The position numbers and the translations under genes are program-made. DNA of 64,000 nucleotides from Lactobacillus huangpiensis (GTDB lineage: Bacteria; Bacillota; Bacilli; Lactobacillales; Lactobacillaceae). The DNA is taken from assembly GCF_019972815.1 (NCBI RefSeq), contig NZ_BPPA01000005.1, forward strand, positions 1 through 64,000. Reading direction: 5' to 3'. This document shows positions 35,249 to 55,190 of this stretch, piece by piece. Every line of letters starts with the position of its first letter. Within the stretch, counting starts at the first letter, position 1. Under the pieces are notes generated by a model. The model had not been told where the DNA came from. It saw only the letters and a list, made by a program, of their open reading frames with translations, and made no database searches.

Positions 35249-35277
35249 TTGACTTTAATTTCTTATTTTTTTATAAT
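35249..35277 (+). promoter_or_regulatory. Promoter of attenuator unit 1
   Basis: TTGACT (35249-35254), 17-base spacer, TATAAT (35272-35277). It is matched base for base in layout by the promoter of unit 2. Confidence 0.85.
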
Positions 35278-35305
35278 TCGGTTATTGAAGTTGGAGGTAA
35301 GGGTA

Positions 35306-35371
35306 ATGATTCAATTTAGTCAAAAAGAAAATCAACTAAATAATCGTTATTATCTTAGCTACTATAGATAA
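35306..35371 (+). CDS. Aromatic-rich leader peptide 1 (21 residues)
   Basis: A short ORF with GGAGG eight bases before ATG, beginning about 20 bases after the predicted transcription start. The peptide ends LNNRYYLSYYR, with four tyrosine codons in the last seven sense codons. A second copy with different DNA but the same C-terminal pattern (LNNRYYFSYFR) stands before the next binding-protein gene. This conservation, despite diverged upstream residues, argues for a regulatory peptide whose translation is sensed. Confidence 0.75.
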   Translation: MIQFSQKENQLNNRYYLSYYR

Positions 35372-35546
35372 GAGTTTGGGTTCATCTAGGTGGATTCAAA
35401 CTAAACACAAGTTTGAATTTATCTATGATGGCTAAGACTCTTTTAGTTTGGTTAGCCACATAGCTTTCTAAGTGGCTGACCACATTCAATCGTTTTTGGC
35501 AATAAAAATTTTTGTGTACCCGCTTAGAAATAAGTGGGTATTTTTT
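35364..35546 (+). promoter_or_regulatory. Transcription attenuator 1 upstream of binding-protein gene 1
   Basis: Mutually exclusive stems are visible. The leader end ATAGATAA (35364-35371) complements TTATCTAT (35419-35426). GTTTGGGTTCA (35374-35384) pairs with TGGATTCAAAC (35391-35401). ATTCAAAC alternatively pairs with GTTTGAAT (35411-35418). GGTTAGCCAC (35450-35459) pairs with GTGGCTGACC (35472-35481). TTTCTAAGTGG (35465-35475) alternatively pairs with CCGCTTAGAAA (35520-35530). The last is incompatible with the terminator TACCCGCTTA-GAAA-TAAGTGGGTA plus TTTTTT (35517-35546). The order fits leader-peptide attenuation. Confidence 0.8.
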
Positions 35547-35559
35547 ATGGAGGCAGAAA

Positions 35560-36528
35560 ATGCATTTCAAGAAATTGATCACAGGAATTAGTATTGTCGG
35601 ATTAATGGCACTGGGAGGGTGCAGCAGCAAAAAAGCCAGCAAGGCGCCTGAGGTTAAACATGTTGGTGTTTTACAAGTAGTGCAGCACCCTTCTTTAGAT
35701 AAGGCATACAAAGGTTTTAAAAAGGGACTAAAAGAAAGTGGTTTTGTTGAAGGTAAAAATCTTAAAATTGACTACCAGAATGCGCAAAACAATCAAGACA
35801 ATCTGAAAAGTATGAGTGAAAAACTGGTTAATGAAAAATCAGATTTGATTTTGGGTATTGCCACTCCGGCTGCACAGAGCGTTGCTAATGCGACCCAAAA
35901 AATACCAACTGTTGTTACTGCTGTAACTGACTTGAAAGCAGCCAAGTTAGTTGATTCAGATGCTAAACCTGGCAGAAACATTACGGGAACAACAGACATG
36001 GTTTCAATTAAAAGACAAATTAAATTATTGCTATCAATCGTACCCAAGGCAAAAACTGTAGGCATTATGTACAATGCCGGTGAATCAAACTCTAAAATAC
36101 AAGCCGATTTAGCTACGGCTGCACTGAAAAAAGCAGGAGTGAAAGTTTTGATTAAAACTGCAAATACAACTAATGATGTCCAGCAAGTAACTGAAACGCT
36201 TGCGTCTAAAGTTGACGGTATTTTCGTTCCTACCGATAATACTTTCGATTCAGCTGCTTCTGTAGTTGGAAAAGTAGTTAAAGAAAAGAAAGTTCCCCTG
36301 GTAGCAAGTTCCGTCGATCAAGTTAGAACAGGTGGTTTGGCCTCAATCGGAATTGATTACGAATTATTAGGAGAACAAACTGGCAAAATGGCTGCTAAAA
36401 TCTTATCTGGAAAAGCAAAGCCAGCTAACATGCCGGTTGAAAGAGCACATGATATGAAATTAGTTGTTAACAAGAGTATGGCTAAAGCACTGGGAATTGA
36501 TCCTAAATCAATTAAAGCACCCAAATAA
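35560..36528 (+). CDS. ABC substrate-binding lipoprotein, TrpX-like (copy 1)
   Basis: A 322-residue binding protein of the ABC_sub_bind family (PF04392), as in TrpX of streptococci. The signal peptide ends in a lipobox (A-L-G-G-C, Cys about 22). Typical segments are HVGVLQVVQHPSLD and GIATPAAQSVANAT. I start at ATG 35560 after GGAGG; an upstream in-frame start lies inside the terminator hairpin. It is about 80 percent identical by eye to copy 2. It has its own promoter and attenuator, and a weak terminator follows, so it may be expressed separately. The leader peptide suggests an aromatic amino acid or derivative as ligand. Confidence 0.88.
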   Translation: MHFKKLITGISIVGLMALGGCSSKKASKAPEVKHVGVLQVVQHPSLDKAYKGFKKGLKESGFVEGKNLKIDYQNAQNNQDNLKSMSEKLVNEKSDLILGIATPAAQSVANATQKIPTVVTAVTDLKAAKLVDSDAKPGRNITGTTDMVSIKRQIKLLLSIVPKAKTVGIMYNAGESNSKIQADLATAALKKAGVKVLIKTANTTNDVQQVTETLASKVDGIFVPTDNTFDSAASVVGKVVKEKKVPLVASSVDQVRTGGLASIGIDYELLGEQTGKMAAKILSGKAKPANMPVERAHDMKLVVNKSMAKALGIDPKSIKAPK

Positions 36529-36542
36529 TTTTAAGTTGATAT

Positions 36543-36618
36543 AAAAAGGCCACTGAACAGTGAAATAAAAAGCAAAAGTGAAAAGCTTTGTTGCTTATTT
36601 CAAATGGGTGACCTTTTT
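36543..36618 (+). terminator. Weak terminator-like structure after binding-protein gene 1
   Basis: AAAAAGGCCAC and GTGACCTTTTT can pair (one mismatch) around a 54-base interval that holds a smaller AAGC hairpin. It would at least partly separate copy 1 from the following unit. Confidence 0.5.
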
Positions 36619-36681
36619 ACTTAGCCTTTGCTTTAAGTGATCATAATTATTATTATTTTTACAAGCTAAATTTATTATTTC

Positions 36682-36710
36682 TTGACTTTTTCTTCTTTAT
36701 TTTTTATAAT
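36682..36710 (+). promoter_or_regulatory. Promoter of attenuator unit 2
   Basis: TTGACT (36682-36687), 17-base spacer, TATAAT (36705-36710), the same boxes and spacing as unit 1. Confidence 0.85.
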
Positions 36711-36739
36711 CTTCTCATTAAGGTTGGAGGTAAAGTTTT

Positions 36740-36805
36740 ATGAAATATAATTTAATACGAGTCTCACAACTGAATAACCGTTATTACTTTAGCTATTTTA
36801 GATAA
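36740..36805 (+). CDS. Aromatic-rich leader peptide 2 (21 residues)
   Basis: GGAGG lies nine bases before ATG. The peptide has the same length as leader 1 and ends QLNNRYYFSYFR: three Tyr and two Phe in the last seven codons. The first nine residues differ from leader 1, so only the aromatic C-terminus and the downstream RNA stems are conserved. Confidence 0.75.
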   Translation: MKYNLIRVSQLNNRYYFSYFR

Positions 36806-36976
36806 GGTTTGGGTTCATCTAGATGAATTCAAACCAGACTCAAGTTTTGAATTTATCTATGATGGCTAAAGTCCTTTAATTGCGGTTAGCCACATAACTT
36901 TCTAAGTGGCTAATCACAAATGATTATTACTAATAATTCTTGTATATCCACTTAGAAATAAGTGGATATTTTTTTA
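36797..36976 (+). promoter_or_regulatory. Transcription attenuator 2 upstream of the TrpXYZ-like operon
   Basis: Same order of stems as unit 1, often with compensatory changes. TAGATAA at the leader end complements TTATCTA (36853-36859). GTTTGGGTTCATCT is self-complementary with AGATGAATTCAAAC (36807-36834). GGTTAGCCAC (36884-36893) pairs with GTGGCTAATC (36906-36915). TTTCTAAGTGG (36899-36909) is a perfect 11-base match to CCACTTAGAAA (36948-36958). The terminator is ATATCCACTTA-GAAA-TAAGTGGATAT followed by TTTTTTT (36944-36976), an 11-base-pair stem with a GAAA loop. Confidence 0.82.
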
Positions 36977-37004: not shown

Positions 37005-37973
37005 ATGCGAATCAAGAAAATTATTATGGGAATGGCTTTAACTAGTCTGTTGCTGCTTAGTGGCTGCAGCAACAAGAAATCAGGAAGTACAGCAACTGTT
37101 AAGCATGTGGGTATATTGCAAGTAGTACAGCATCCCTCGTTAGATGAGGCTAACAAAGGTTTCAAAGAGGGCTTGAAAGAGAATGGCTACGTTGAAGGCA
37201 AGAATCTAAAAATTGATTATCAAAATGCCCAAAATAGCCAAGACAATCTGAAAAGTATGAGTGAAAAACTAGTCAATGAAAAATCAGATTTAATTTTGGG
37301 AATTGCTACGCCGGCAGCGCAAAGCGTAGCAAATGCTACTGAAGATATTCCTATTGTAGTAACTGCAGTGACTGATCTAAAAGCTGCTAAATTAGTAAAT
37401 TCAGATGCAAAACCTGGCAGAAATGTTACTGGAACTACTGACATGGTTTCAATTGATAAACAAATAAAATTGTTATTATCAATAGTGCCTAAAGCTAAAG
37501 CAATTGGCATCATGTACAATGCCGGTGAGGCCAATTCTAAAATTCAAGCGGATCTAGCTGTCAAAGCACTTAAAAAAGCCGGCGTTAAAGTTTTAATTAA
37601 GACAGCTAACACTACTAATGATGTCCAGCAAGTCACTGAAACTTTAGCTGGAAAAGTACAAGGAATTTACGTACCAACAGACAACACATTTGCTTCTGCT
37701 TCCTCAATTATTGGTAAAGTTGTTAAGGAAAAGAAAATCCCACTGGTAGCCGGTTCAACTGACCAGGTTAAAACTGGTGGCTTGGCTTCTATTGGAATAG
37801 ATTACGAGGCGCTTGGTAAACAAACCGGTAAAATGGCTGCTAAAATTTTAGACGGTAAAGCTAAACCTAAAGATATGCCTGTTGAAAGGGCAACTGATTT
37901 GAAATTGGTGGTTAACAAGAAAATGGCAAAGGCACTTGGAATTGATCCTGCTTCAATTAAAGCACCTAAGTAA
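37005..37973 (+). CDS. ABC substrate-binding lipoprotein, TrpX-like (copy 2)
   Basis: A 322-residue paralogue of the preceding binding protein, with signal peptide and lipobox (L-L-L-S-G-C). It shares HVGILQVVQHPSLDEA and the late ATDLKLVVNKKMAKALGIDP segment. It is the first structural gene of the operon that encodes permease and ATPase. CGGAGG lies seven bases before the ATG. It delivers the ligand to the permease. Both copies appear intact, so they may differ in affinity or ligand. Confidence 0.9.
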   Translation: MRIKKIIMGMALTSLLLLSGCSNKKSGSTATVKHVGILQVVQHPSLDEANKGFKEGLKENGYVEGKNLKIDYQNAQNSQDNLKSMSEKLVNEKSDLILGIATPAAQSVANATEDIPIVVTAVTDLKAAKLVNSDAKPGRNVTGTTDMVSIDKQIKLLLSIVPKAKAIGIMYNAGEANSKIQADLAVKALKKAGVKVLIKTANTTNDVQQVTETLAGKVQGIYVPTDNTFASASSIIGKVVKEKKIPLVAGSTDQVKTGGLASIGIDYEALGKQTGKMAAKILDGKAKPKDMPVERATDLKLVVNKKMAKALGIDPASIKAPK

Positions 37974-38003: not shown

Positions 38004-38921
38004 ATGTTGAATACATTTTGGGAGTTATTACTTTCATCTACTTCTCAAGGATTACTTTGGTCATTAATGGCAATCGGTGTTTACTTAACTTTTCGGATAT
38101 TAGATCTAGCCGACATGACAGCTGAAGGCAGCTTTCCATTAGGGGGAGCCGTTGCAACGATGTGCATTATTAAGGGAATTAATCCTATTTTGGCAACTGT
38201 TGCCGCATTTGTTGGCGGTTTGATTGCTGGCTTAGTTACTGGTATTTTGAACACTAAATTGCGTATTCCTTCCTTACTAGCAGGAATTATTACAATGACT
38301 GGCTTGTACTCCATTACTTCCAGAGTAATGCAAAACGCTGCTAATGTTTCATTGCTGGGCAAAGATACAGTTTTTACAATTGCGCAAAATTGGGGATTAA
38401 GTCGTAACAATGCAGTAATTGCGATGGGATTGATAATTGCACTTTTGGTTATACTATTATTAGTTGTTTTTTTCAAAACTGAAATTGGCCTGGCTATGAG
38501 AGCTACAGGCGACAATCCTCAAATGAGTGCCGCAAATGGTATCAAAACTCAAGGAATGAAAATTTTAGGCTATATGATTTCTAACGGGTGCATTGCCCTG
38601 TCAGGTGGACTTTTAGCACAAAATAACGGCTTTGCCGATCTTAACTCTGGTGTTGGTACTCTGGTTATTGGATTAGCTTCAATTATTATTGCAGAAGTAC
38701 TTATCAGGAATCTGCCAATTGGCGGTCGTTTACTTACTTTAGTTGTAGGTGCCATCATTTATAGGCTGATTTTAGCCCTAGTGTTCCAGATGAATGTAGA
38801 ACCATCTGATGCAAAATTAGCTTCAGCTTTAGTTTTAGTTGTGTGCTTAACTTTGCCGAATTTCCACTTGCCACGCAATCTTAAAGGAGGAAAGCAAAAT
38901 GCCAGAAGTACTAAAAATTAA
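38004..38921 (+). CDS. ABC permease, TrpY-like (branched-chain type fold)
   Basis: A 305-residue permease of the BPD_transp_2 family with eight or nine hydrophobic segments. The segment GLAMRATGDNPQMSAANGI matches the EAA-like loop of this family. It lies 30 bases after the binding-protein gene, and its end overlaps the ATPase gene by 23 bases. The ribosome site is weak. Confidence 0.9.
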   Translation: MLNTFWELLLSSTSQGLLWSLMAIGVYLTFRILDLADMTAEGSFPLGGAVATMCIIKGINPILATVAAFVGGLIAGLVTGILNTKLRIPSLLAGIITMTGLYSITSRVMQNAANVSLLGKDTVFTIAQNWGLSRNNAVIAMGLIIALLVILLLVVFFKTEIGLAMRATGDNPQMSAANGIKTQGMKILGYMISNGCIALSGGLLAQNNGFADLNSGVGTLVIGLASIIIAEVLIRNLPIGGRLLTLVVGAIIYRLILALVFQMNVEPSDAKLASALVLVVCLTLPNFHLPRNLKGGKQNARSTKN

Positions 38922-54951: not shown

Positions 54952-55190
54952 AAAAAAACCTCGTTGATAAAATCAACGAGGCTTATTTTTTATTCATCAA
55001 ATAAGATTTCAGCGAAGTTTAATAACGACGCGAGTTTTCTGTCTAATCTTGTTTGTTCTTCTCCCATCCAGACTTTAACTGTCGGTACTAGACTTACACT
55101 AGTTCCACCGCAAAACGCGGGTCACGGACTTCAATCATTAATTGTCACCGTCGGTAAGGAATTACACCCTGCCCCGAAGAAACCGTATTC
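54952..55190 (-). promoter_or_regulatory. FMN riboswitch (RFN element) with terminator
   Basis: The minus strand carries the conserved RFN blocks: TTCGGGGCAGGGTG (about 55167-55180), TTCCTTACCGACGG, GACCCGCG and GTCTGGATGGGAGAAGAA near 55055. It ends with a perfect terminator stem CCTCGTTGAT-TTT-ATCAACGAGG and TTTTTTT (54952-54981). FMN binding should stop transcription before ribD. Confidence 0.95.

Follow-up and report, generated by a model that had tools for sequence, protein, structure and literature searches.

Within a 64,000-nucleotide stretch of Lactobacillus huangpiensis DNA (assembly GCF_019972815.1, contig NZ_BPPA01000005.1, positions 1 to 64,000; hereafter the window), two similar RNA leader modules precede two genes for binding proteins of the TrpX family. 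Judging from its sequence, each copy is very likely a transcription attenuator that senses tyrosine and phenylalanine through the ribosome. The parts of such a switch are present in both copies; across related elements, they are conserved and covary, they precede genes for aromatic amino acid uptake and synthesis, and their codons match the ligand pocket of the encoded protein. This is a known kind of mechanism. The scaffold is not described as an attenuator in the literature searched: in open-licence PubMed Central, we found no attenuator description of this element and no mention of YFSYFR, its leader-end motif.

A preliminary description of this DNA had placed a promoter, a leader open reading frame (ORF), competing stems, and a GAAA-loop terminator in front of each gene, and coordinates, consensus matches, and folding locate both modules where it had put them. 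The segments run along the RNA in the order A, B5', B3', C, D5', D3', E5', E3'.

35249-35277 (+): promoter of copy 1, TTGACT-17-TATAAT, by consensus match only
35306-35371 (+): leader ORF of copy 1, MIQFSQKENQLNNRYYLSYYR and stop; four Tyr and no Phe in the last seven codons
35353-35370 (+): segment A of copy 1, the 3' end of the leader, by alignment; partner C in the ribosome-free state
35374-35401 (+): hairpin B of copy 1 (B5' 35374-35385, B3' 35390-35401); the 5' part of C is the alternative partner of B3'
35415-35437 (+): segment C of copy 1 (C5' 35415-35424, C 35420-35437); partners A, B3', or D5'
35454-35477 (+): hairpin D of copy 1 (D5' 35454-35463; D3' 35464-35477, the antiterminator strand)
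35516-35541 (+): terminator E of copy 1, GAAA loop and T tract; E5':D3' with one G-U in the read-through form
36682-36710 (+): promoter of copy 2, TTGACT-17-TATAAT, by consensus match only
36740-36805 (+): leader ORF of copy 2, MKYNLIRVSQLNNRYYFSYFR and stop; three Tyr and two Phe in the last seven codons
36787-36804 (+): segment A of copy 2, by alignment
36807-36834 (+): hairpin B of copy 2 (B5' 36807-36818, B3' 36823-36834)
36849-36871 (+): segment C of copy 2 (C5' 36849-36858, C 36854-36871)
36888-36911 (+): hairpin D of copy 2 (D5' 36888-36897, D3' 36898-36911)
36944-36969 (+): terminator E of copy 2, GAAA loop; perfect E5':D3' in the read-through form
35355-35523 (+): sub-threshold RF02863 match of copy 1, 52.0 bits (gathering score, 61)
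36789-36951 (+): RF02863 sRNA_2410 match of copy 2, 64.3 bits (gathering score, 61)

Both promoters match 11 of 12 consensus letters and rank as the top two of eight promoter-like sites. Because that number is no excess over shuffles (mean, 7.2), the evidence for them lies in quality and placement. TTGGAGG stands 5' of both leader ORFs. Relative to dinucleotide shuffles, the two leaders fold far more strongly (z of -8.6 and -10.3), and four terminator-like sites occur on the two strands versus 1.1 in shuffles. When the segments are compared, the antiterminator of copy 2 (TTTCTAAGTGG with CCACTTAGAAA) pairs perfectly and that of copy 1 (with CCGCTTAGAAA) has one G-U, as first described. The exclusion of a T-box also holds, as no RF00230 match reached the gathering score anywhere in the window.

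The preliminary description had not recognised the element as a described one. Copy 2 in fact belongs to Rfam family RF02863, "Enterococcus sRNA 2410" (64.3 bits over 61; copy 1, 52.0), so the RNA is catalogued, albeit only as a small RNA (sRNA). The window elements and the Rfam family are the same RNA; the Rfam type is that of an sRNA gene, whereas here the RNA forms a partly coding 5' leader.

Leader codons and downstream genes

We read 120 RF02863 matches (59 best-match loci, 60 picked for spread, and window copy 1) as a sample of search lists that contain further matches; loci (L) and genomes (G) carry our own labels. An in-frame, aromatic, YFSYFR-like end was present in all 120. Thirteen of these ends escaped the script and were identified by reading: 12 have the stop displaced downstream (e.g., YFSYFRSCL before the stop), and L027 is one residue shorter (YFYSYF). 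Among the 82 non-redundant elements, a start codon and a Shine-Dalgarno-like site were found in 79 by a loose test (exceptions, L023, L025, and L085). The five aromatic codon positions are aromatic in 72, 81, 80, 82, and 81 elements, compared with 0 to 3 elements at each of the seven codon positions preceding them. The fourth codon of the motif, which sits in an unpaired loop, is TAT (n = 52), TAC (n = 21), TTC (n = 6), or TTT (n = 3), with no other codon used. Since this codon is unpaired yet always encodes Tyr or Phe, its usage points to selection that acts on decoding and not on the shape of the RNA. Loss of the leader Tyr codons in relatives had been named beforehand as evidence against attenuation; at this position, Tyr or Phe is kept in 82 of 82 elements. 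At the sequence level, the elements therefore have what an attenuator requires of its leader: it is short, could be translated, and carries a series of regulatory codons.

The YFSYFR end is strongly kept across genera, including the Ser and the Arg (81/82 each), which would also suit an arrest peptide, where the nascent chain itself stalls the ribosome on a free metabolite, as in TnaC or SpeFL. The Ser (AGC) and Arg (AGA) codons, however, lie within paired strands, and RNA pairing can account for both. The unpaired codons exchange Tyr and Phe (YYYSYYR, FFFSFFR, FFFSDFR), or take Trp in a sister element described below, and these exchanges follow the gene controlled, a tolerance that one would not expect of an arrest peptide. 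We regard this explanation as improbable.

The genes 3' of the 120 elements encode TrpX-family binding proteins (n = 91), AroE (n = 23; 22 by clustering and L013 by reading), 3-deoxy-D-arabino-heptulosonate 7-phosphate (DAHP) synthase (n = 2), the prephenate dehydratase PheA (n = 2), the chorismate synthase AroC (n = 1), and a family-3 solute-binding protein (n = 1, L066). One member per class was checked with Pfam (L002, L113, L090, L103, and L066), the TrpX-family class through the window's own proteins. Thus, 119 of 120 elements precede a TrpX-family or aromatic-pathway gene. This placement bears on the label of RF02863 as a trans-acting sRNA. PMC5593968 gives a 195-nt Enterococcus faecium RNA of this name with two transcripts on Northern blots, and the portion of that paper at hand mentions no cis role. 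A terminated leader would likewise appear as a short RNA, and neither the gene context nor a coding leader with a covarying antiterminator fits a trans-acting role, which we consider very improbable.

A further 126 motif occurrences (L120 to L246) left 19 loci without a class by BLAST. Five of the 19 are like the 3-dehydroquinate synthase AroB (L181 by Pfam and four more by likeness), four are like SNF-family transporters, five have no ORF before the locus end, and the remainder are a shikimate kinase (AroK, L203), a permease-like gene, a missed AroE (L136), an insertion-sequence-like gene (L145), and a gene of no recognised kind (L156). L181, L203, L148, L164, and L232 were checked with Pfam. 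SNF-family transporters were found at Eubacterium multiforme L148, Clostridium sartagoforme L164, L232, and L280; the nearest solved chain to the L164 protein is 4us3 (MhsT). In the Tetragenococcus halophilus record that holds L145, the first ORF 3' of the leader resembles an IS200-type transposase.

Leader codons vary with the gene. In L275 and L281, the leader ends in FFFSDFR, an aromatic run of Phe alone, and the gene that follows encodes a prephenate dehydratase (by Pfam for L275 and by likeness for L281). As expected of an attenuator, the regulatory codons match the controlled pathway. Two other leader ends were YYYFGWFS (L276) and FYYYFGFFR (L277), the latter 5' of a class I/II aminotransferase gene. 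In the six tandem pairs read (the window, G017, G018, G019, G022, and G029), the first leader has Tyr without Phe in its last seven codons (YYLSYYR or YYYSYYR, 6/6) and the second has both (YYFSYFR, 6/6), which suggests that the two copies may divide the labour. Tandem pairs also occur in G1163 and G1164, outside these six.

RF02863 matched 215 of 395 Lactobacillales genomes (99 of them above the cutoff) and 27 of 60 relatives; in both searches, none of the 14 control genomes had a match. A covariance model, termed R1, was built from the 82 non-redundant Tyr/Phe elements. In the genome that holds the window, it found the two copies and nothing else (129.8 and 123.9 bits; both had also served to train it). 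At an E value of 0.001 or better, it matched 36 of 398 genomes when the class was searched and 4 of 398 when the phylum was searched. Named genomes, scanned with a sequence pattern, gave at least 119 stretches. The 80 stretches listed are mostly from Enterococcus and Streptococcus; Vagococcus, Tetragenococcus, Alkalibacterium, Atopobacter, and Alloiococcus also occur among them, with Clostridium, Eubacterium multiforme, and Aliicoccus as outliers. Within the window's genus, the element is present in 12 of 37 genomes, exactly the 12 with a binding protein of at least 82% identity.

Mutually exclusive RNA structures

Two alternative structures were scored on the 82 elements. In the off form (A:C, B, D, and E), 95.3% of cells are paired and 26 of 41 pairs are changed on both sides; shuffles gave 89.6% and 13.7 pairs, and 0 of 500 scored as high on any of five measures. 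Sliding the partners by 1 to 3 columns lowers pairing to 29 to 42%. The on form (B3:C5, C3:D5, and D3:E5) is 90.2% paired, with 14 of 27 pairs changed on both sides, compared with 88.7% and 6.0 pairs in shuffles (0/500 as high on four measures and 9/500 on the number of pair types) and with 31 to 44% pairing for slid partners. The on-form D3:E5 columns were set in the register of transporter-type elements, and this score thus undercounts the 20 enzyme-type elements (18 5' of AroE, plus L103 and L113), which have an extra base in E5'. In those 20, the D3':E5' register is shifted by one and each pair forms in 16 to 20 of 20, indicating that the antiterminator is kept by a matched insertion. The extra base was not seen in the elements of three other enzyme genes (L022, L090, and L092). 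In L029, a Phe-to-Tyr change in A is matched in C (TTT/AAA to TAT/ATA).

By duplex energy, an element's own partner beats the mean of other elements' partners in 67 (A:C), 81 (B), 63 (B3:C5), 73 (D), 76 (D3:E5), and 82 (E) of the 82 elements, and the control pairings A:D3, C:E5, and A:E3 showed no own-partner gain in the same set. Compensatory pairs in relatives had been the other test set in advance, and both alternative structures do covary, the C:D5' helix weakly. A terminator and an antiterminator that exclude each other, as in a ribosome-mediated attenuator, are thus both conserved.

Binding-protein pockets and a Trp-codon sister element

The genes downstream of the window leaders are as follows.

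35560-36528 (+): binding-protein gene 1, PF04392 (ABC_sub_bind); pocket residues Ser/Tyr
37005-37973 (+): binding-protein gene 2, PF04392; nearest solved chain by sequence, 6hni
38004-38921 (+): permease gene, PF02653
38899-39702 (+): ATP-binding protein gene, PF00005

Among the solved relatives, CD0873 is a Tyr binder, VC_1101 a Phe binder, and SP1069 a Trp binder (PMC6816091); in SP1069, Gln-284 contributes to Trp binding at a position where the other two have Tyr. Both window binding proteins have Tyr at this position, as do 161 of 163 entries behind Tyr/Phe leaders (133 of 135 distinct proteins; one gap and one Phe). As Trp-binding TrpX proteins (NF041285), the two window proteins score 331.9 and 335.3, below the cutoff of 390, and have Tyr rather than Gln in the pocket; on both counts, we reject Trp specificity for them. 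The original term "TrpX-like" is therefore misleading: the proteins should read as Tyr/Phe-type. The position of CD0873 Glu-263 was also tried as a discriminator between Tyr and Phe and gave no clear trend among the 153 of 163 entries with a parsable leader (Ser, 135; Ala, 10; Phe, 4; Asp, 3; Glu, 1). One paralogue of the window's binding protein (G010:C16:58982-59947) carries an in-frame TAA. Elsewhere in the window, an FMN riboswitch lies at 55052-55185 on the minus strand (107.2 bits).

Weak R1 matches in genomes that already have Tyr/Phe copies led to leaders ending in WQNWRR or WQTWRR, 5' of another TrpX-family gene; four such Trp-codon loci scored 58.4, 43.6, 38.7, and 34.2 bits. Of 395 Lactobacillales genomes, 50 contain the pattern TGGCANNNNTGGCGTAGATAG and none contains it read backwards. 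Of 30 distinct Trp elements, all have the A:C pairing and 29 have a T run 3' of D3'. Because of this T run, D is read as the terminator, and C:D5' would then likely be the antiterminator. All 32 distinct proteins behind Trp leaders (34 were read, with two places twice) have Gln at the SP1069 Gln-284 position.

The four loci found with R1 (L271 to L274) match the trpB motif, RF04312, just above its cutoff (59.8 to 68.7 versus 59); in the window, neither copy matches RF04312 at the cutoff. The trpB motif shares the A, B, C, and D blocks with the Tyr/Phe element. It differs in having Trp codons and a relay one step shorter, with D as terminator, and in its published status as a riboswitch candidate. 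RF04312 had four matches, one of them above the cutoff, when 299 genomes of the phylum were searched; the three weak ones (L314 to L316) are without a Trp leader and look like chance. The only match in the 14 control genomes, in Lactococcus lactis, was below the cutoff.

From the window's own genus, we fetched 16 of 27 listed paralogues of 36 to 45% identity. All 16 have Gln at the SP1069 Gln-284 position, and all have a Trp leader (15 by script and L343 by reading). The leaders end in RWQFQH, RWQNQH, RWQGQ, WWQN, SWQGQHD and similar, or RWQVR, each before the stop. These loci (L329 to L344) lie about 600 nt 5' of the Trp-type genes and combine the Trp-codon leaders with a CCAGCAC/GTGCTGG-like relay and a terminator; L343 has a compensatory CCGG/CCGG change in the relay. 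The best partner of the leader 3' end is the C segment in 14 of 15 and D3' in L332. RF04312 matches 11 of the 16, all below the cutoff, and no T-box was found 5' of the 16 genes at the gathering score or at an E value of 0.1. Thus, within one genus, Trp leaders appear to serve Trp-type proteins, and Tyr/Phe leaders appear to serve Tyr/Phe-type proteins.

PMC11109978 (2024) rates the trpB motif, with over 900 members, as a strong riboswitch candidate and leaves a protein factor or a classic attenuator possible. The upstream Trp codons argue for a classic attenuator, a reading that covers Lactobacillales. That candidacy of a related motif, together with strongly conserved structure, might suggest that the Tyr/Phe element is also a riboswitch that binds its metabolite with no need for translation. 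The conservation, however, sits in the leader codons and the competing strands, and codon identity follows the gene; such a riboswitch would be most unlikely. We think it probable that RF02863 and RF04312 are branches of one attenuator scaffold in which codons and pocket have changed together (Tyr/Phe, Phe-only, and Trp), forming a modular aromatic amino acid regulon that spans Lactobacillales and has outlying members in Clostridium and Staphylococcaceae, and that the trpB motif is a ribosome-sensed attenuator and not a riboswitch.

Proposed mechanism and relation to known attenuators

We infer the stalling, its cause in tRNA charging, the read-through, and three states of the ribosome. On a ribosome-free leader, A would pair with C around hairpin B, D would close on itself, and terminator E would form, leaving the gene off. 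Once charged tRNA-Tyr or tRNA-Phe runs short, a ribosome would stall on the aromatic codons and cover A while hairpin B remains; C:D5' would pair, the freed D3' would take E5', and, with the terminator blocked, the transporter gene would be made. When both amino acids are plentiful, the ribosome at the stop would cover A and B5', so that B3' captures C5', D closes, and E terminates. The amino acid sensed would be set by the leader codons within the scaffold, of which there are versions with a Phe-only aromatic run 5' of pheA and with Trp codons 5' of Trp-type transporters. The preliminary description proposed that a ribosome stalled on Tyr and Phe codons would shift the stems and thereby control uptake of an aromatic compound; this is the reading best supported by the conserved codons and the covariation of both structures.

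We folded RNAs ending at E5' from the 82 elements, with the 5' part removed as if covered by a ribosome. The read-through form appeared in 22 of 82 with A present, in 26 and 28 at edges -15 and -12 relative to the stop position, in 46 to 52 at edges -9 to +3, and in 26 at +6 to +12. If the leading edge of a ribosome lies about 13 bases past the decoded codon, these three groups would be the pattern expected for no ribosome, a stalled ribosome, and a ribosome at the stop, respectively.

Several observations weigh against this model. The read-through form climbs again at edges +15 to +24 (31, 38, 44, and 58 of 82). The equation of edges with ribosome positions depends on the footprint assumed above, and in displaced-stop elements the edge was counted from the usual stop position. 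The window's own copies do not follow the expected pattern: copy 1 takes the off form at 13 of 15 edges, the exceptions being +21 and +24, whereas copy 2 takes the on form at 14 of the 15, even when A is present. Full-length RNA forms E in 82 of 82 elements, whether A is present or A and B5' are removed; the read-through decision would therefore have to be kinetic and made during transcription. Covariation of C:D5' is weak (58/82, with 2 of 2,000 permutations as good) because both sides hardly vary, and pairings outside the model exceed permutation, namely, D5:E3 (0/2,000) and, slightly, B5:C5 (49/2,000). As the sequences are related, the shuffle counts are not probabilities. A QLNN stretch often stands 5' of the aromatic run (Q in 44, L in 46, the first N in 62, and the second N in 36 of the 82 elements) and lies outside the roles that the model assigns. 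Finally, the pocket contrast is largely one between two protein groups, with a median identity of 0.41 between them and 0.51 and 0.62 within them (sampled pairs).

The attenuator proposed here offers a function for an Rfam "sRNA" and an answer to the printed question of whether the trpB motif is a riboswitch, a protein target, or a classic attenuator. It appears to control aromatic amino acid uptake and synthesis across much of Lactobacillales. The match of codon to pocket may serve as a simple predictor of transporter specificity from the leader, and the Tyr, Phe, and Trp versions form a natural codon-swap set. The interest of the system lies in its breadth, in this codon-to-pocket match, and in the proposed reassignment of two Rfam families. 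According to PMC2965389 (2010), until a His leader was described in bacilli, leader-peptide systems had been demonstrated in Proteobacteria and Actinobacteria only.

Like the enterobacterial trp, his, and pheA attenuators, the element combines a leader rich in regulatory codons with three ribosome states and a terminator/antiterminator choice; its relay is longer (A to E3'), and its hosts are Gram-positive. The leucine-rich attenuator peptide of Staphylococcus aureus (PMC5794164) is also leader-peptide attenuation in a Firmicute and, by its description, is set apart by responding to branched-chain amino acids. The uORFC-13-1 motif 5' of aroF in Acholeplasma (PMC8632094) is a proposed leader with one or more Phe codons in front of a DAHP synthase gene; as described, it differs in being known from 24 representatives in Acholeplasma and unassigned environmental sequences. 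The Trp T-box of Streptococcus suis trpX (PMC9382623) controls a related transporter by premature termination as well, but it is a tRNA-binding RNA without a leader peptide.

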